Of a stretch of DNA of 64,000 nucleotides, positions 45,307 through 52,893 are shown piece after piece. Position 1 is the stretch's first letter, and every line of letters starts with the position of its first letter. The DNA lies in the NCBI RefSeq assembly GCF_029433105.1, contig NZ_JARNTW010000002.1:599744-663743 (forward strand), read 5' to 3'. The notes under the pieces are model-generated. The model was not told the DNA's origin, did no database searches, and saw nothing but the letters and a program-made list of their open reading frames with translations. This DNA comes from Runella sp. MFBS21 (GTDB lineage: Bacteria; Bacteroidota; Bacteroidia; Cytophagales; Spirosomataceae). A program made the translations under genes and the position numbers.

Positions 45307-45378
45307 GCACCCGTAGTTCAATGGATAGAATTATGGTTTCCGGTACCATCGATAGGGGTTCGAGTCCCTTCGGGTGCA
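45307..45378 (+). tRNA. tRNA-Arg (anticodon CCG)
   Basis: A complete cloverleaf folds by hand. The acceptor stem is GCACCCG/CGGGTGC, the D arm GTTC-AATGGATA-GAAT, and the anticodon stem ATGGT/ACCAT around the loop TTCCGGT, with anticodon CCG at 45340-45342 reading CGG. The variable loop is CGAT, and the T arm has the loop TTCGAGT. Discriminator base A78 is followed by CA. A promoter lies upstream and a strong terminator starts 17 bp after the tRNA. Its 3' end appears to be an integration site. Confidence 0.95.
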
Positions 45379-45394
45379 CAATAAGAAATATAAC

Positions 45395-45438: not shown

Positions 45439-45442
45439 TACC

Positions 45443-45830
45443 ATGCACCACGGTAAACCCAAAAATGTTTCAGTAATGACGGTCACTCCTGAACTCAATA
45501 ACCGCCCTAATAAGGAGAGATTGCATTCCATTCAAATAGGTATTACCCACAATCGTAAATTAAAGCGCATTGCGTTGGAGTATGCCATCCCAATGCAGCC
45601 ATTAAAATGAAGATGCTGGAAGCGCAACAGGAAGATTTGCGTAGCCAAATTCCGGTCCTCTAAAAGCAATTTGCAATCTACGCTCAAGCAAGTTTAAGGA
45701 GTTTTTGAAACAGGAAGATTTGCTTTTTCCTGAACTGGATGATGATCTTATCAAATCCTACCAACGGCATCTGAAGAAAATCGGTAATGCCACCAATATC
45801 ATTTGTAATGCCATTTCGCTATCATTTTAA
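45443..45830 (+). pseudogene. Decayed tyrosine recombinase (phage integrase SAM-like), N-terminal part only
   Basis: Two pieces in different frames can be read. From 45443 the frame gives an arm-type DNA-binding region with IQIGITHNRKLKRIALEYAI. Near 45700-45830 another frame gives FKEFLKQEDLLFPEL, DDDLIKSYQRHLKKIG and NATNIICNAISLSF before a stop. These match the N-terminal arm-binding and SAM-like core-binding domains of Bacteroidota transposon integrases. At least one frameshift separates them and the catalytic domain (R..H.R..Y) is missing, so it is inactive. Its position directly after tRNA-Arg fits past integration there. Confidence 0.75.
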
Positions 45831-45964: not shown

Positions 45965-46090
45965 CCGCTAACGGTTTCGAGCTTGGCGATGTGGCGGATT
46001 TTTAGTATCCCGAAGGCTTTCGGGATTTTATAGAAGCATCGCGCCGGTGACCCGGTTCAGACGCCATATTGCCAATAGGATGTTAGTGGC
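45965..46090 (-). repeat. attC-like palindrome 1
   Basis: Cores GCTAAC (45967-45972) and GTTAG (46082-46086) bound imperfectly paired arms: left TTGGCGATGTGGCG pairs with the complement of CGCCATATTGCCAA (12 of 14). The left arm carries extra unpaired bases. A perfect inner hairpin, ATCCCGAAGG/CTTTCGGGAT-like, lies at 46007-46026. The stop codon of the upstream gene is formed inside the GTTAG core. It follows the gene at 46083-47237 in the gene's sense. Confidence 0.7.
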
Positions 46091-47237
46091 TGTGATTCTC
46101 ATTCCAATCAAGTTTTGTGATTTTATTTCCGTTTATAATGAGAACCGATATTTCCCTGTCCAAACCTGTTCCATAATGGTCTAAATTCATAAGAGTAAAG
46201 TTTCCATATTTGTTTGTAACGGGGTGGTGAGTGTAAAAATCGTCAAAAAATAAAGCATTTACAATTTGAATTTCATTATCCTTAATTTCCGCAAGGAAGG
46301 TTAAGTTAAAAAGATGAACCAAATATAAAACTTTGTCTTTGTGGTTGAATGAAGAAAATACCTGTACTCCATATAAATCAAATGTTTTTTTGAAGGCATT
46401 TGACTTGTCACTATAACCAATGGCTTGTCCCTTAAATGTTTTTCCAACTTCATTTGGTTGTGCCAAAGTTAGTTTTGTCGGGTCAGGTATGGTTTTTAAT
46501 TCTGTTGAGCCACCACCGTGTCCTAAATGAGCTAAAACATTATAGCCATTTTCATTTTTAATTATCGAGTTAGCACAAGTTGATTCAGTGAAAAAGGTTT
46601 TTAATGTTGATTTTTCAAAAAAGTAAACCGTCCCGCCCCATTCTCCAAAACAGTCGCCAAACACAATAAATCTATTGTCTTCAAATAGTTTTGGGCGATT
46701 TTTTAACGGAAATTTATTTTTTGATTTAGTCCATTTATTGCCATTCCAAAGATAAATTGAATTTCCTGAAAGCCCACCTAACTGATTGTTAATTATCCAA
46801 TGATAATTGAATTGTTTAGTATTTAACTTGTTTTCTAATTTTGTATTTCGTTCAAAATTGTCAAGATTAAAACAAGCAAATTTTCCATTTTCAAAAAGAG
46901 AAACGAGTGAATTGTCATAAATAACTGAAAAGGAATTTGGGAAGTTTTTTACATTGTTTTTTTCTTCACCTTCATTTTCATATTTGTCTGTGAAGTATGG
47001 ATTTTTAATAACAATATGATTTGTATCGAACTCAATGTAGTTGTCGCTTACGGAAACCTTAAATTTCTCTTTGTAAGGACTTAAATATAAAGTGTCTTTT
47101 GTTACAGAAACTTTTTTCCAAGTTTGCTTTCGGAAATGGTCAATAAGTTTTTTCTCAAAATTCAGTTGTTTGTTTTGAGCAAACGTTGAAATTGAAAGCC
47201 CGAAGCTTAATATTATGTAGAATAGTTTGTTTGTCAT
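46083..47237 (-). CDS. Hypothetical exported protein, cassette gene 4
   Basis: A 384-residue protein starting at the ATG at 47237; a GTG two codons upstream lies inside the neighbouring palindrome. Signal peptide MTNKLFYIILSFGLSISTFAQ. The rest is beta-strand-rich with many W/Y/F-containing segments (IYLWNGNKWTKSKNKF, VYFFEKSTLKTFF), perhaps a beta-propeller. I recognise no family. Its TAA stop is part of the palindrome core that follows. No promoter is evident between it and the preceding palindrome. Confidence 0.72.
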   Translation of the reverse strand: MTNKLFYIILSFGLSISTFAQNKQLNFEKKLIDHFRKQTWKKVSVTKDTLYLSPYKEKFKVSVSDNYIEFDTNHIVIKNPYFTDKYENEGEEKNNVKNFPNSFSVIYDNSLVSLFENGKFACFNLDNFERNTKLENKLNTKQFNYHWIINNQLGGLSGNSIYLWNGNKWTKSKNKFPLKNRPKLFEDNRFIVFGDCFGEWGGTVYFFEKSTLKTFFTESTCANSIIKNENGYNVLAHLGHGGGSTELKTIPDPTKLTLAQPNEVGKTFKGQAIGYSDKSNAFKKTFDLYGVQVFSSFNHKDKVLYLVHLFNLTFLAEIKDNEIQIVNALFFDDFYTHHPVTNKYGNFTLMNLDHYGTGLDREISVLIINGNKITKLDWNENHSH

Positions 47238-47238
47238 A

Positions 47239-47390
47239 GCCACTAACGTTAAAGCATTGGCGATGGTGGGGTCAGCTCAATCCCGAAAGCTTTCGGGACA
47301 CATATGCCCAATAGAATTACAAATTCGGACGGCCGATGCCATTGAGTTTACAACTGTCAGCCCCACTATTGCCAATACGATGTTAGCTGT
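47239..47390 (-). repeat. attC-like palindrome 2
   Basis: Cores CTAAC (47243-47247) and GTTAGC (47382-47387). The arm CATTGGCGATGGTGGGG pairs with the complement of CCCCACTATTGCCAATA (14 of 17), and TCAGCTC/CTGTCAG-like bases extend it. A perfect 18-bp inner palindrome TCCCGAAAGCTTTCGGGA lies at 47281-47298. The same arm wording occurs in palindrome 1. The unit TTGGGCAT, read on the minus strand, is shared with palindromes 3 and 4. Confidence 0.75.
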
Positions 47391-47413
47391 TCGGGCTTTG
47401 TTTTATTATCAGT

Positions 47414-47824
47414 CTAATCAATTTGTCGGTAAATTAACCCTTGACTTGCTAACTCATTTTCCTTAAGTGGACTAATGAATGCAATTCCAAAATCAGCAAC
47501 ATCACCATTTATATCACAAAAATGTCTATCTCCTTCATATCCGCTATTTTTTAGAATATCATTTAGTCCTGCTAGTAAATTCTCAGAGTCCACGTAATCC
47601 GAGATTATTCGGACAGAAAAGTTTTCCTTTCTACCGTTCACTACCAACGTAAATTTAAACTCATCGTTATTCTTTTCTCCCACGAAACTGTCAAGAGTTA
47701 ACAATCCTTGTGAAATTGCAAAAGATTTTTCAATGGTCTCTTTGTAATCATTAGCTTCTGATATGCAATCTGGAAGGTCAATGAAGTGTTCATTGTCTAA
47801 AATAATGTCGTTGAAATAATTCAT
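47414..47824 (-). CDS. Hypothetical protein, cassette gene 3
   Basis: A 136-residue soluble acidic protein (MNYFNDIILDNEHFIDLPD...), alternating predicted helix and strand, ending FISPLKENELASQGLIYRQ. I recognise no family. Size and acidity resemble polymorphic-toxin immunity proteins, but no toxin gene is adjacent, so this is weak. It lies between palindromes 2 and 3, which begin 24 bp after its stop and 53 bp before its start. Confidence 0.65.
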   Translation of the reverse strand: MNYFNDIILDNEHFIDLPDCISEANDYKETIEKSFAISQGLLTLDSFVGEKNNDEFKFTLVVNGRKENFSVRIISDYVDSENLLAGLNDILKNSGYEGDRHFCDINGDVADFGIAFISPLKENELASQGLIYRQID

Positions 47825-47876
47825 AATATTAAATTTATTAATTGATTTAATTGATTTTGGTCAGTTGTCTGCCTGA

Positions 47877-48008
47877 CAGCTAACGGATAGGGCTTTGCGA
47901 CGGGCGGGTTTACAAGCACAAATGCCCAAGTTATTACTAAAATTCAATTGAAAAACTAATATTGATTTTTGCACTCAGCCCACCTGACGCAAAACCCGTG
48001 TTAGCACT
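47877..48008 (-). repeat. attC-like palindrome 3
   Basis: Cores GCTAAC (47879-47884) and GTTAGC (48000-48005) with arms GGCTTTGCGACGGGCGGG versus GGGTTTTGCGTCAGGTGGG (complement of the right side). Bases in the left arm are again unpaired. On the minus strand it contains TTGGGCATTTGTGCTTG, close to the equivalent piece of palindrome 2. It follows the gene at 48049-48696 in gene sense. Confidence 0.68.
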
Positions 48009-48048
48009 TCGCCCTTCTTTTGTTCTTCTGTTTGTTATTTTTTTAAGT

Positions 48049-48696
48049 CTATTCATTTTCTCTTTTATAAATTTCTCCATTCAAACTATTTAGAATAGCT
48101 GTCTTTAAGTCAAAATTGTCAGAATATGAGTAAACTGCATTAGTTAATTTCATTTCACCAAATTTTGGATGACCATTTCTGTCGTTGCCAATAATTTGTC
48201 TATGAGAATGGGCTTGTGTAATGTCACCTTCTGAAATAGTCAGGAAAATCATCAACAAAGTTTCCAGAGGAAGGAAAAACAATGCATGTTTTTTTGTCTT
48301 GTCCGAATTAATTAAAAAACCGTCAAGTCTGTCAGAGCTGTCAAATGAAAAGACTAATGAAAAGCTATGAATTATTTGGTTAATAATAAATCTCCAATCT
48401 TTTTCTGTTTTTGTTACTTTGTCAAAGTTGTAAAGAGTGTCAATTCTGTGCCAGTTTATATGGTCAACAATTGTTCCCTTGCTTTCGGAAAATTCCAAAT
48501 TTTCTTTCTTTGTCAAAAAGTCTGGTAGTATTTTCTGTGCATCATCAAGTTTCCTGATTATGTAAGCACCTATCATTAACGCTTTTTCAACTTTTACCTG
48601 GGATTGTTCAGTAATTCGTTTTAAATGTCTGAACTTAGCAATTGTCAAAAAGCTATTGTATAATTCCTTTTTCCAAAAATAACTTTCATGTATCAT
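48049..48696 (-). CDS. Hypothetical protein, cassette gene 2
   Basis: A 215-residue soluble protein, helix-rich in the first 100 residues (KVEKALMIGAYIIRKLDDAQK), then mixed, with a His-rich AHSHRQIIGNDRNGHPKFGEM segment near 165-185. I recognise no family. It starts 33 bp from palindrome 4 and ends 40 bp before palindrome 3, the regular gene-plus-site order of the array. Confidence 0.65.
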   Translation of the reverse strand: MIHESYFWKKELYNSFLTIAKFRHLKRITEQSQVKVEKALMIGAYIIRKLDDAQKILPDFLTKKENLEFSESKGTIVDHINWHRIDTLYNFDKVTKTEKDWRFIINQIIHSFSLVFSFDSSDRLDGFLINSDKTKKHALFFLPLETLLMIFLTISEGDITQAHSHRQIIGNDRNGHPKFGEMKLTNAVYSYSDNFDLKTAILNSLNGEIYKRENE

Positions 48697-48729
48697 TATT
48701 TCTTATTTCTGTGTCCTCTTTCAGGGTGA

Positions 48730-48928
48730 GTGCTAACGAGCAGGTATTGCTGCAGGTGGGATATTTTATAACGTCCAGCCTGGAACCGATGCCCAATTGA
48801 AAATATAATGTTGAAGTTAACAACAAAAAGCCAAATTGAAACTCGTCTGCCCGAACAAAAGTACAGCGATGCAAACAGCCGAAGTTTCAACGTCCAGCCC
48901 CACTTGCAGCAATACCAATGTTGGCTGT
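48730..48928 (-). repeat. attC-like palindrome 4
   Basis: The longest of the set. Cores GCTAAC (48732-48737) and GTTGGC (48920-48925). The arm GGTATTGCTGCAGGTGGG pairs with the complement of the right arm at 17 of 18 positions, and a second paired block ACGTCCAGCC lies further in. The loop of about 130 bp has no gene and includes minus-strand TTGGGCATCGG. It follows the LRR gene in gene sense. Confidence 0.75.
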
Positions 48929-48949
48929 TCGTTTTTCTTCACAATAATT

Positions 48950-50431
48950 TTAAGTTCGTTTGTGAATGGTCTCGCTAAAGAATTTCCCACTTGTTGCTAC
49001 AAAATCATGAGTTACATTTTGAAATGTCATAGTGTCTAACATGTTTTTCCCATCAAGCCATAACTCCTTTAAACTAGGAAACTGGTAGATGTCAATGATT
49101 CTAATATTCGTGCCCCTAATGTCAAGTTTTTCAATGTTCGGAAAAGTAATAGCTTTTGGGAATTGAGTTATCGGATTCATTTCAATTATTAAAGTTTTTA
49201 GATTAACTAAATTCTCTATTGAATCAGGTATTTCCGTTAATCCTGAATCTGCAATTTGTAAAAATTTTAAGTTCGGCAACATTGAAAGCTTTTCGATTGT
49301 GTCAATTATGTCAAGTTTAGGTTGCTTACGAAAATTTGCAACCGTAATATGTTTTAGCCTTCCTATTTTGTCAGAAATCGTTTCAAGCTGAACTTGATAG
49401 CAGTCAAAAATATTCTCGATTTCATCTCCGTATCTCATAGAGGCATAAGGAATCATTCCTGTCTTCGGTTTTACAAGGAAATAATTTCTCCTAATTGCTT
49501 GAGAAAATACCAAGAATTCCGCTGAAGCAATTGCAGGGTTTTCATATAGAGCCTTATGAATGTACTCTTGGTCCTTCAAGTAACTGTCCTTCCAGTTTTC
49601 TTTTACTTGGGATAGTAAATCAGATGGGGCATATTTCTCGAGTTGCTTTTTTGCAGCTTTTCTAACTTTTGAATCTCTGTGAAAACAGCTAAGATTTAAA
49701 ATGTACGAAAGCGTATAATTATTTATATCACTTTCTATTAGAGCATTAACTGATTGTTGTACTAACAAATCATCTTCACTTATCAAAGTATTAAATATTG
49801 TATCTGCTCTCTCTAAAGCAGATAAATCGTTATCAATTAATTTGATGTTTACAGAATGGTGTGCGACAATTGTTGAATCCGTATTCTTATTTTGCTTTTT
49901 AGATTCTATTTCCACAGAAATATTTACATCCACTTTTGTTCTTTGAATTGAAACTAATTTGTATCGATGTGCTTTTTCAAATGGCTCAATATTCCAATAA
50001 GATTTGCCTAAGACTACATCTAATTGTTTCCAGATTATTTCAGAAGCATCACTTGTATTTTCTTCAACTTTCAATTTTTCTCCTTCATCGGACATAATAC
50101 TATCATTCATTGCCATGAATGAACGCCTCAATTTGCGTCCCTCACAATAGTTTAAATTAAATGCCATGGATGTCTCTGAAAGAGCGAAAGTTAAGGTGTC
50201 GCCATTTTCTATACTCCATGGCTCAACGCACAAATCCATGTTTATAAAAAGCAATGTTCCTTTTTCGCTGAAATAAATATCACATACTTCCTCTTCTTTC
50301 CAATTTTCTGATGCCTTTTCAAAATTTATTTCTTCAATAAAGCTTAGTGTTAAACCAAGTTGTTTTTGTAGTTCAATTAAGTTGTTGTTAAAGTTAATAT
50401 TAGTCGCAATTCCAGATATGTTAAAGCCCAT
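48950..50431 (-). CDS. HEAT- and leucine-rich-repeat protein, cassette gene 1
   Basis: A 493-residue protein from the ATG at 50431 (MGFNISGIATNINF). The frame stays open for 42 more codons upstream, but that part covers half of an attC-like site and looks non-coding. Residues ~215-300 resemble HEAT/armadillo repeats (SCFHRDSKVRKAAKKQLEK...); residues ~380-480 are leucine-rich repeats with LPNLKFLQIADSGLTEIP, LVNLKTLIIEMNPITQFP and FPSLKELWLDG. It is probably a cytosolic protein-binding scaffold; the role is unknown. First gene of the array. Confidence 0.75.
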   Translation of the reverse strand: MGFNISGIATNINFNNNLIELQKQLGLTLSFIEEINFEKASENWKEEEVCDIYFSEKGTLLFINMDLCVEPWSIENGDTLTFALSETSMAFNLNYCEGRKLRRSFMAMNDSIMSDEGEKLKVEENTSDASEIIWKQLDVVLGKSYWNIEPFEKAHRYKLVSIQRTKVDVNISVEIESKKQNKNTDSTIVAHHSVNIKLIDNDLSALERADTIFNTLISEDDLLVQQSVNALIESDINNYTLSYILNLSCFHRDSKVRKAAKKQLEKYAPSDLLSQVKENWKDSYLKDQEYIHKALYENPAIASAEFLVFSQAIRRNYFLVKPKTGMIPYASMRYGDEIENIFDCYQVQLETISDKIGRLKHITVANFRKQPKLDIIDTIEKLSMLPNLKFLQIADSGLTEIPDSIENLVNLKTLIIEMNPITQFPKAITFPNIEKLDIRGTNIRIIDIYQFPSLKELWLDGKNMLDTMTFQNVTHDFVATSGKFFSETIHKRT

Positions 50432-50469
50432 GTCTTGTCTATGTTTGTTAGTAGTAAAGAGTCGGTTTA

Positions 50470-50600
50470 AAATGACAGCCAACACAATATAGCCGCAACC
50501 CTTTCGCCTACACCCCAAATATACCCACTTTCCATAAAATGTACCTAATGATTTCATAGGATGTTATGTAAATTTTTTCCCAAAGTGGGTAAAGGCTAAA
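50470..50600 (-). repeat. Half attC-like site and boundary hairpin at the upstream end of the array
   Basis: The plus strand has AGCCAACACAATATAGCCGC at 50477-50496, which resembles one core and arm of palindrome 4 and sits 46 bp before the start codon of gene 1, as in the other units. I cannot find a matching second arm. A separate 10-bp inverted repeat TACCCACTTT (50522-50531)/AAAGTGGGTA (50582-50591) follows. This may be a truncated site marking the array end. Confidence 0.4.
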
Positions 50601-50642
50601 CAGACATAGTGTTTTTAGTTCAAAATCGCCCATTTTGCTTTC

Positions 50643-50690
50643 AAAACCAAAAGGCTGCACTCAGTGAAATAGGGCAGCCTTTTGGTTTTT
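50643..50690. terminator. Terminator at the right part of the island
   Basis: A perfect 16-bp stem AAAACCAAAAGGCTGC and its complement, with a 15-nt loop, followed by Ts. It lies between the cassette genes and the second tRNA-end copy. Confidence 0.85.
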
Positions 50691-50742
50691 TATAAGGGGG
50701 TACTTCTTTTTGTAAATACGATTATATGAATCTACGAAGTTG

Positions 50743-50752
50743 TTCGGGTGCA
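50743..50752 (+). repeat. Second copy of the tRNA-Arg 3' end (candidate att site)
   Basis: TTCGGGTGCA is identical to the last ten bases of the tRNA at 45369-45378. It continues with TAAAAAGAA, compared with CAATAAGAA after the tRNA. No complete tRNA precedes it. Confidence 0.5.
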
Positions 50753-50877: not shown

Positions 50878-52893
50878 TCAATGATAACTTAAGCCTTCTC
50901 CAAATTTGAACAATGAATAACCCTTTGGTTCTAGCATACCGGGTACATCTGATTTGTTTTCTTCTACGGCCTGCTGAGAAGTGGGAATGGTAAATGGTAA
51001 TTTACCTGTTGGGTTAAATTTCCCACTTATAACGTCCAAAAGGGCATCGGTAGTGGTGCCAAAGGTTGCTATGATGGTTTTGGCCGCCTCACTGTTAAGT
51101 TCATCTAATACCCATGGACTTGAAAAATTGATGGCTAACACCGTAGGTTTGCTTTTGAGGGTTTCGTTTACGCGGCTTATGTCAATTTTGTTTTTTGATA
51201 AACCTAATTCAATGGGCTTATTGGCTGAGGCAAACAAACCTCCAGCACTTGGAACAAGCCACAATACGACTATATCAGCTTCTTCTTTTGTCATTACAAA
51301 TTCCAAGGCTTGGTGAGGAGAAGTGGGTTTATAAACTGTAATTGGGTTAGCAACTCGACCATTGTCGTAATGGGTTTCAAAATAAACCTTTGTTTTTTGG
51401 GCTAATGGAAGAATTTTCGAATCATTTTTTAAGAGAACGATGGATTTACGTAAAGCCAACTCGGCTTTTTCTTGGAAAGCGGTACTGCCCACCGTAGTTT
51501 GTGCTTTTTCGGGGTCAACGTAAGGATTCTCAAATAGACCTAATGCAAATTTCTCGGTCAATAAACGTGCGACAGACTCATTGATTCGAGTTTCTGAGAC
51601 CAGTCCTTGCTTCACTACATCTTTCAAAATAGTGGGGTCTGCGGTACCAGAAAATAAGTCTACTCCTGCTTCCAAGGCTTTTTGGTAGCGTTGAGTCAAA
51701 GTGAGCTGTTCGACCCCCCAAGGCATCATTTCAATGGGCCCCGTGTCAGAATTGACGATACCTTTAAATCCCAATTTTTTGCGTAAGAGGTCTTGAATAA
51801 TGGCTTTGTTATAAGAAAAACCCACTTCTTCAAATCCCTTTCCCTTAGGGCTTGAATAATACGGCATGATAGCCGAGGTACCAGCTTCAATCGCCGCTTT
51901 AAAAGGCTTTAGATGATATTCAAACATGCCCCCTGGGTAATGTGCATATTTTCCCCAATCAAAGTGCGAATCCAAGCCTTTTTCTTGAGGCCCACCCCCC
52001 GGAAAATGCTTCGTTGTCATCGCTACCGAACTGGGGGATAGATGCGTTCCCTGAAATCCTTTTACAATCTCCCCTATCATGGCGGCACTCCAATCGGCAT
52101 CTTCTCCAAAAGTTCCTTCGATACGCTGCCAGCGGGGTTCGGTTGCCAAGTCGGCCATGTACATATACCCTTTGCGCAGCCCCACTGCCGTCCATTCTTG
52201 ACGCGCAATCTCTGCAAACTCTCTTGTAAGTTTTAGATCATGCATGGCCGCGAGTCCTAGCTCTCCGGGCCATTTTGAAAACGCCGTAGTTCCCACACTC
52301 AATCCAATGGCGGCATCAATCGTGATGTGATTTCGGGGGTTGGAGGCCACAATCGCCGGAATTCCCAAACGAGTGCTTTCGCACAAATCTTGCAAATGAT
52401 TAGCCCATTCGGCTATGGTTTTTGCGGGTGGATTGGCACGAAGTATAAAGTGCCGTAAGTGGAATTCTTTTACTCCTTTGGTAGTACCCGCAGCCGACAT
52501 AATAGGCACCGTGAGGGGCTTTCGAGTAAACATGTTGTTGGGTTGTACCAAATCTTCTTCATTGAACTTGCTGGTGATTTGAGTTCGTGCCCCTCCCTGC
52601 TGAAAGGCGTTGTCGCCCGCCATTCGGGTGGTACTAATAAGCATAAAGCCTACCTTTTCTTCTATCGTCATTTGGGAAATCAAATCCTGTACGCGTACCT
52701 CTGGCGACAGACGCCAATCTTCGTAAGGATCGAGCTTTTCATTTTTATTGAGATCCTTGAAAGTTAGCCCGTCTTTGAGGATTATTTTTACGGAACGATA
52801 GCCTAAGGTAGGTTGCTGGGCTAAGAGGAAGCCTATTGAATAGGGGCCTATCATCCCCATGACTAAAGCTAGAATTTTTTTCAATTGAATCAT
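50878..52893 (-). CDS. Glycoside hydrolase family 3 (beta-glucosidase-like), exported
   Basis: A 671-residue GH3 enzyme with a signal peptide (to about residue 25). The N-terminal TIM barrel shows LISQMTIEEKVGFM, RNHITIDAAIG, R.EGTFGEDA, AMTTKHFPGGGP and the nucleophile region GFKGIVNSDTGPIE with aspartate in SDT. The C-terminal alpha/beta sandwich has ALRKSIVLLKND.KILPL and GKFNPTGKLPFTIP, ending in a short EGLSY. No fibronectin-III domain follows. It likely cleaves beta-linked oligosaccharides in the periplasm; the linkage is unknown. It stands alone, with 200 bp without a gene upstream. Confidence 0.92.
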   Translation of the reverse strand: MIQLKKILALVMGMIGPYSIGFLLAQQPTLGYRSVKIILKDGLTFKDLNKNEKLDPYEDWRLSPEVRVQDLISQMTIEEKVGFMLISTTRMAGDNAFQQGGARTQITSKFNEEDLVQPNNMFTRKPLTVPIMSAAGTTKGVKEFHLRHFILRANPPAKTIAEWANHLQDLCESTRLGIPAIVASNPRNHITIDAAIGLSVGTTAFSKWPGELGLAAMHDLKLTREFAEIARQEWTAVGLRKGYMYMADLATEPRWQRIEGTFGEDADWSAAMIGEIVKGFQGTHLSPSSVAMTTKHFPGGGPQEKGLDSHFDWGKYAHYPGGMFEYHLKPFKAAIEAGTSAIMPYYSSPKGKGFEEVGFSYNKAIIQDLLRKKLGFKGIVNSDTGPIEMMPWGVEQLTLTQRYQKALEAGVDLFSGTADPTILKDVVKQGLVSETRINESVARLLTEKFALGLFENPYVDPEKAQTTVGSTAFQEKAELALRKSIVLLKNDSKILPLAQKTKVYFETHYDNGRVANPITVYKPTSPHQALEFVMTKEEADIVVLWLVPSAGGLFASANKPIELGLSKNKIDISRVNETLKSKPTVLAINFSSPWVLDELNSEAAKTIIATFGTTTDALLDVISGKFNPTGKLPFTIPTSQQAVEENKSDVPGMLEPKGYSLFKFGEGLSYH

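Follow-up and report, generated by a model that had tools for sequence, protein, structure and literature searches.

A probable orphan cassette array in Runella and an apparently undescribed integron-like gene-capture system of Bacteroidota

Introduction

A stretch of 64,000 nucleotides (nt) from Runella sp. MFBS21 (contig NZ_JARNTW010000002.1, genome G000; here termed the window) contains four minus-strand genes and four imperfect palindromes, located between a tRNA-Arg gene and a gene for a GH3 glycosidase. These are very probably an orphan array of an integron-type system, composed of a leader and four cassettes, the recombinase of which is found elsewhere in the genus and the phylum. The system is apparently an undescribed and widespread gene-capture system of Bacteroidota. 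Its complete platform would consist of a tyrosine recombinase that is related to the integron integrase IntI and lacks the I2 insert, followed by an attI-like site (often with TAnnTTTG) and then by cassettes, each with one gene or a few and a structured attC-like site (GCYAACA...CGTTRGC; about 130, 160 or 190 nt). The argument is made by comparison: it draws on covariation of the sites, their uniform orientation, the recombinase at the head of the arrays, varied cassettes behind a conserved leader and breaks at G^TT.

The array in the window

The original prediction, made from the letters of the window, had described four palindromes, one behind each gene. All four are recovered by R1, a covariance model of the site (see below), which slightly corrects their limits and places them on the minus (gene) strand, and the order is g4-S4-g3-S3-g2-S2-g1-S1:

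50878-52893: GH3 glycosidase gene, flanking the array on one side
50478-50700, minus strand: attI-like leader, best conserved at about 50480-50643, with the core G^TTGGC at 50483-50478
50516-50523, minus strand: promoter-like TATATTTG inside the leader upstream of g4, recognized by its sequence
48950..50431, minus strand: cassette gene g4, leucine-rich repeat protein (Pfam LRR_4, E 1.4e-10)
48732-48925, minus strand: S4, attC-like site of the 194-nt class (R1 40.2 bits)
48049..48696, minus strand: cassette gene g3, 215 aa, no family
47879-48005, minus strand: S3, attC-like site (R1 98.5 bits, E 6.5e-20; one of the 24 training rows)
47414..47824, minus strand: cassette gene g2, 136 aa, no family
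47242-47387, minus strand: S2, attC-like site (R1 52.8 bits), with a phylum-wide 27-mer in its right arm
46083..47237, minus strand: cassette gene g1, 384 aa, no family
45967-46087, minus strand: S1, attC-like site, the last of the array (R1 33.5 bits, E 2.1e-5)
45307-45379: tRNA-Arg gene, flanking the array on the other side

Genes g1, g2 and g3 have no match in Pfam, NCBIfam or PADLOC. The stop codon of g1 overlaps S1, and the open reading frame (ORF) of g4 is open to 50557, with 50431 as the first ATG within the cassette. It was also claimed that no gene has an obvious promoter, which holds for the single genes; the leader upstream of g4, in turn, contains the promoter-like TATATTTG, which fits the Bacteroidota -7 consensus (TAnnTTTG). 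The absence of IntI was correctly predicted, since no protein of the genome matches TIGR02249, the IntI family, over its cut-off. The array-type recombinase was not found in G000 or in its close congener G402 either, the best matches having about 33% identity; it is present in other congeners, e.g., G190, G397 and G403. With four sites, and neither IntI over the cut-off nor array recombinase in the genome, the array has the composition of a cluster of attC sites lacking integron integrases (CALIN), the sites themselves not being canonical attC. The attI-like leader beside g4, the recombinase in other genomes and its non-IntI nature (no I2) had been missed in the earlier reading.

The attC-like sites

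Folded one at a time, the sites of the window are mildly better than their shuffles (gene strand z -1.2 to -2.9), so that one site alone would prove little. The weight lies on an alignment of 24 diverse sites with a structure of 26 pairs, drawn from these same sequences. Paired cells amount to 85% vs 66.5% after shuffling, cells changed on both sides to 107 vs 42.7, and the covariation score to 0.450 vs 0.148, with none of 500 shuffles as high in any of the three; sliding of the partners lowers the score to 0.115 or less. The remaining two of the five measures differ little from their shuffles: 18 pairs are changed on both sides (15.6 shuffled, 44/500 as high), and further pair types number 36 (34.5 shuffled, 181/500 as high). 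As is expected of attC, the site is an imperfect palindrome with a folded structure, and its pairing is under selection.

The 24 aligned sites were the basis of R1, the kind of covariance model that had been proposed as a check of the prediction, and it matches all four sites of the window. In G000 it finds at least 19 sites, which are clustered (150 of 3031 candidates scored); this whole-genome listing includes S2 and S3 and not S1 and S4, and site counts are to be read as floors. Among 395 sampled Bacteroidota genomes sites are present in at least 173, and in 95 of 170 genera (8 candidates scored per genome). In its right arm S2 contains a 27-mer that recurs exactly in 33 stretches within a collection of 84,980 species genomes. 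The carriers of this 27-mer are Chitinophagaceae, Spirosomataceae, Cyclobacteriaceae, Sphingobacterium, Chryseobacterium, Flavobacterium, Hymenobacter and others, as well as single metagenome-assembled genomes (MAGs) labelled Ignavibacteria, Thermochlorobacteriaceae, Brocadia and Pacearchaeota; the exact copies in the Brocadia- and Pacearchaeota-labelled MAGs (L056, L080) reflect transfer or a binning error. Around the 27-mer most of the 130-nt site is conserved in all stretches but two (L067, L080), the flanks look unrelated, and the same loci contain additional, very different sites. The 27-mer had no match in viral contigs.

Read in the direction of the gene, the consensus is GCYAACA at the start and CGTTRGC at the end. 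The letters that follow G^TT are variable, as they would be if they were part of the next cassette. A GTT frame is present in about 315 of 325 sites, and the canonical attC boxes are rare (GTTRRRY in 26 and RYYYAAC in 24 of the 325). Most sites measure 120-139 nt, and two smaller classes lie around 160 and 190 nt. The more stable fold is that of the bottom strand in 196 of 272 sites and that of the top strand in 71. Simpler searches were of little use: the pattern CAGCCCCAN{10,28}GTTRGC alone stayed near the control count in most genomes and served only for conspicuous identical 30-mers, and a local palindrome scan returned almost nothing at strict settings, which were then relaxed.

Rules of the arrays

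The organization of arrays was studied on loci picked for having sites or recombinases, from which seven duplicate loci and then one more duplicate site (326 to 325) were removed. The resulting 325 sites lie in 87 loci, 60 of which have two sites or more (298 sites), and none of these 60 is of mixed orientation. The nearest flanking ORF just before a site is on the same strand in 258 cases and on the opposite strand in 9, none being found in 58. The median gap between gene and site is 12 nt and the median spacing of sites 880 nt. Large arrays keep to one strand each, with 20 sites in stretches of G375, 21 in G057 and 27 in G186.

Repeats occur within such arrays. A unit of about 1245 bp, which may be a duplicated cassette or an insertion sequence, has four near-identical copies in the G057 array (L134 10832-12076 and 15678-16922; L135 10791-12035 and 17576-18818). 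A 693-bp repeat with 100% identity in another array (L054 1679-2371 and 6649-7341) has one end at a core and is likely a cassette duplication.

The leader and the attI-like site

The leader of the window was compared with other copies by BLAST, with a query that ended at the core. It is 75.9-87.2% identical over 150-166 nt to copies in G402, and up to 89.6% identical to other copies in G000, where it stands before at least six other groups of sites (L123, L125, L126, L127, L128 and L129, the copies of L125 and L128 being weaker). Different letters follow each of them. In an alignment with three G402 copies, common sequence extends to GTT (ATT in one copy), past which the sequences are unrelated. 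The GH3 protein of G402 is 97% identical to that of the window and the array beside its gene has other genes. A 308-nt alignment that contains S1 reaches 79.5% identity to G402 (L241 10022-10328). In nine more distant congeners no R1 site was found beside the GH3 gene at E up to 0.01. In the G402 locus L241 (9092-12506) three leaders stand in a row, and each has a separate set of genes; it seems that leaders are being multiplied in this genome although the array recombinase was not found there.

Beside the recombinase itself a consensus CATATAnnnAAGTTRG can be recognized, about 65-125 nt past the stop codon in most of the leaders where it can be placed. A looser expression of it occurs in 30 of 53 leaders vs 15% of random stretches, and TAnnTTTG in 23 of 53 recombinase leaders vs 11% of random stretches. 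Four genomes of one genus share several kb that include the recombinase and the attI-like site, and their sequences differ beyond AGTTA; L198 and L201 remain alike for about 40 nt past it. Judged by these comparisons, the leader is a putative attI, i.e., a site beside the integrase where cassettes would enter, being conserved to G^TT and followed by differing sequence.

The array recombinase

In G057, G375 (broken gene), G002, G150 and G007, and at locus L054, a tyrosine recombinase gene directly precedes the first cassette. The best-scoring NCBIfam family of the G057 protein (L136) is NF040815, with 225.5 bits at a cut-off of 220. Other array recombinases stay under this cut-off (L046 206.3, L048 193.4 and L044 172.4, the latter two being short ORFs). 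The cut-off of TIGR02249 (265 bits) is not reached by L136 (210.6) or L046 (192.5), each of which matches the family in two stretches with a gap at about positions 180-240. L136 (6591-7658) also carries an N-terminal extension of about 80 residues (RIAVYFEKN...WHLP), seen in some array recombinases. No relative of the array recombinase was found in viral contigs.

Forty neighbourhoods were taken from the recombinase matches listed, mostly from the top of the list, with 42-71% identity to the G057 protein. Sites are present in 33 of them; 109 of 113 sites are on the strand of the recombinase and 108 of 113 downstream of it, after exclusion of two opposite-strand mirror matches (115 to 113), and the nearest site is usually one gene away. 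The divergent exception is L210, with four sites on the other side of the recombinase. Of the seven neighbourhoods that lack sites, four have 300 bases of downstream sequence or less.

In an alignment of proteins of at least 280 aa, grouped by similarity to L136 or to IntI1, all 49 array-type recombinases lack the IntI-specific I2 insert, which all 17 IntI have. In the tree of the same proteins, which is rooted at the midpoint and has several long branches, the 49 array-type rows form one side of a branch (96/92) and IntI a branch of its own (100/100), and a further branch (100/99) parts both, together with row L270, from six XerC/XerD-like rows. The array recombinase is thus placed by sequence as a clade next to IntI, without I2.

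The prediction had proposed to look for a tyrosine recombinase that tracks the arrays, and across the 395 genomes such an association is seen. When the recombinase was called at E up to 1e-48 (at most 5 candidates scored per genome; raw counts, kinship uncorrected), sites were found in 96 of 117 genomes with the array recombinase vs 77 of 278 without it (Fisher 6e-24).

Apparent movement of cassettes

In integrons, cassettes move as a gene plus attC with breaks at G^TT. Two cases that resemble this were selected, and as comparative evidence they are more telling than a blind test of alignment ends. A 1302-bp unit is 99.77% identical between a Bacteroidetes MAG (L068) and G059 (L187). Its 5′ side is preceded by the attI-like motif TATATAAACGAG in L068 and by the site end AAACCG in L187, where the copy stands behind an R1 site in the middle of an array; both continue with TTGGGCGC and both breaks are at G^TT. 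On the 3′ side identity stops at CCCGTT. The gene of this unit (L068 4837-5655) may be a dihydropteroate synthase, as suggested by the motif ILGVVNITEDSFSDGG. In the second case, the first cassette of Sphingobacterium CZ-2 (L046), which adjoins the recombinase, is met again in the middle of an array of a Chitinophagales MAG (L057). The two copies are 84% identical; the likeness sets in at G^TTGTACG in either copy and is gradually lost past CGTTAGCGG, within the core region. In both pairs, as far as sequences can tell, cassettes appear to have moved as a gene with its attC-like site, with breaks at G^TT.

Several observations weigh against the integron-type reading as a whole. The evidence for recombination by the array recombinase is comparative, and neither recombination nor an excised circle was observed. 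According to R1 the L068/L187 unit has no site at its 3′ end, and the recombinase was not found in L068. In the blind test, 14 of 455 ends of high-scoring segment pairs lay within 12 nt of a core vs 3.2 expected, a modest excess. The attI pattern is limited to the 30 of 53 leaders given above, a few of these being apparently spurious, and three of the seven recombinase loci that lack sites have ample downstream sequence (L184, L200 and L208). I2 is also absent in 7 other aligned recombinases, XerC/XerD included, so that its absence alone is no marker of the array-recombinase clade. Finally, 66 of 201 genomes with neither the array recombinase nor canonical IntI still have sites, as some recombinases were perhaps missed (at most 5 candidates per genome) and some arrays are orphan.

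Alternative explanations

One may ask if the array is simply a remnant of a canonical IntI integron, i.e., a CALIN that has lost its integrase. The layout is the same, and canonical IntI over the TIGR02249 cut-off is encoded in 105 of 395 Bacteroidota genomes. This is more than would be expected from the excerpted part of PMC9024848, and among the genomes listed with such a match only G037 belongs to the class of the window. However, ten canonical-IntI neighbourhoods (151 kb) contain one weak R1 match (26.7 bits, E up to 0.05), whereas 115 matches lie in 645 kb around the array recombinase (E up to 0.005). Sites occur in 74 of 89 genomes with the array recombinase only and in 22 of 28 with both enzymes; they are rarer where canonical IntI is alone (11/77) than where neither is present (66/201). 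Together with the GTTRRRY end in just 26 of 325 sites, these counts make a remnant of canonical integrons highly improbable.

Slightly less credible still is a role of the palindromes as transcription terminators specific to single genes, or as other RNA elements carried along with their genes. In favour of such elements, the sites are mostly directly behind genes and both strands fold. Yet near-identical 130-nt sites with unrelated-looking flanks occur in many families of the phylum, the 27-mer of S2 being exact in 33 foreign stretches, and shared DNA breaks at the core, and the sites cluster downstream of one recombinase family. Conservation of the palindromes with their genes, or lack of shuffling at the core, had been named as outcomes that would speak against integron-like cassettes; both came out the opposite way, since the leader is followed by different cassettes in G402 and cassettes common to other genomes break at the core, and the cassette reading of the prediction is thereby supported. 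Short non-autonomous transposons inserting behind genes (miniature inverted-repeat transposable elements or repetitive extragenic palindrome-like elements, moved by an HUH or DDE transposase) would be dispersed, palindromic and near-identical across genomes, as the sites are, but they hardly account for the single orientation within arrays, for shared units that comprise gene and following DNA with a G^TT break rather than the palindrome alone, for covariation among very divergent copies, which implies long selection on folding, or for site positions that follow the recombinase.

Comparison with integrons and proposed mechanism

The integron-type reading of the arrays has to be set beside integrons proper (IntI, attI and attC, in mobile form or as chromosomal superintegrons). 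The likeness is extensive: a recombinase heads an array of one orientation, an attI-like site has a G^TT core, the cassette is a gene with a folded imperfect palindrome, cassettes are exchanged, and both orphan clusters and plasmids with resistance genes occur. Unlike in integrons, the recombinase lacks I2, the sites rarely fit GTTRRRY/RYYYAAC, and in 39 of 40 neighbourhoods any sites are on the recombinase strand instead of divergent from it. The system would work like an integron; by I2, the TIGR02249 cut-off and GTTRRRY it is not an IntI integron.

By this likeness, the recombinase would excise cassettes between attC-like sites and insert them at attI between G and TT. Its substrate would be the self-folded bottom strand of the site, with which the folding bias described above fits, as a hint and not as a demonstration. 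As in integrons, the core might be cut between G and T, one strand exchanged between the folded site and the double-stranded leader and the product resolved by replication, and the promoter of the leader would express the first cassettes. Since no such recombinase was found in G000, the array of the window may be frozen, served in trans or acquired ready-made.

Plasmids and resistance genes

Relatives of the recombinase with about 65% identity are present on two Chryseobacterium plasmids, with five R1 sites downstream in L213 and none in L279. A Riemerella anatipestifer plasmid (NZ_CP073240.1; L277 1994-17490) has 12 sites on one strand within its first 17.8 kb, nine of them directly after a same-strand gene, in most cases one for resistance: aadS, two tet(X), lnu(I), a helix-turn-helix gene, blaOXA, estT, a phosphotransferase and APH(3'). 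This is a multi-resistance cassette array of the I2-less system.

A Klebsiella IncC plasmid (NZ_CP084417.1; L278 8001-9763) encodes a shortened relative of the recombinase, 52.6% identical over residues 107-355, directly before GAGTTAGCGGTAATT (an attI-like core) and blaVEB-3; no R1 site was found after this gene. Coordinates show the same neighbourhood of recombinase and blaVEB-3 on two K. pneumoniae plasmids. Where blaVEB-1 or blaVEB-18 stands between other known cassettes, the cassette has the same TTAGCGGTAATTT at its start and, at its end, a site matched by R1; for blaVEB-1 this match spans the full length of the site with 33.6 bits, about the level of S1. In excerpts of PMC3518468 the veb1 cassette is reported mostly in class 1 integrons, and its attC is described as 133 bp long, with a GTTAGCG core and a long terminal part, and inefficient with IntI1. 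blaVEB is probably a cassette of the I2-less system, from which it would have entered class 1 integrons, and such an origin may explain the oddness of the veb1 cassette as a class 1 integron substrate.

Significance

Taken as a whole, the data somewhat favour a second integron lineage in Bacteroidota, phylum-wide and partly plasmid-borne, that captures genes at folded sites without I2, assembled the Riemerella cassettes and was the source of blaVEB in class 1 integrons. In the open-access papers searched no account of this kind of system was found, subscription papers and preprints being outside the scope of this search. Caution as to prior art is advised by the name of the NCBI family NF040815, "site-specific tyrosine recombinase/integron integrase" (recomb_XerA_Arch), which already contains "integron integrase" and is silent on attC-like arrays.

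According to PMC7790495, cassette capture requires I2, the acquisition of which opened the way to integron integrases. A clade next to IntI that heads arrays of folded sites without I2 makes this claim directly testable, and it would either serve as a living model of the stage before I2 or represent an alternative to that stage. A search that relies on canonical attC and on IntI with its additional domain may miss this system, which is present in at least 173 of the 395 sampled genomes and already tied to resistance through the Riemerella plasmid.

Flanks of the array

A broken integrase was suspected beside the tRNA-Arg gene, at 45440-45830; tblastn with two integrases returned nothing there, and it is not claimed. 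A direct repeat, TTCGGGTGCA, is present at 45369-45378, the 3′ end of the tRNA-Arg gene, and at 50743-50752, beyond the leader of the array, and the two copies may mark a tRNA-targeted island that carries the entire array.

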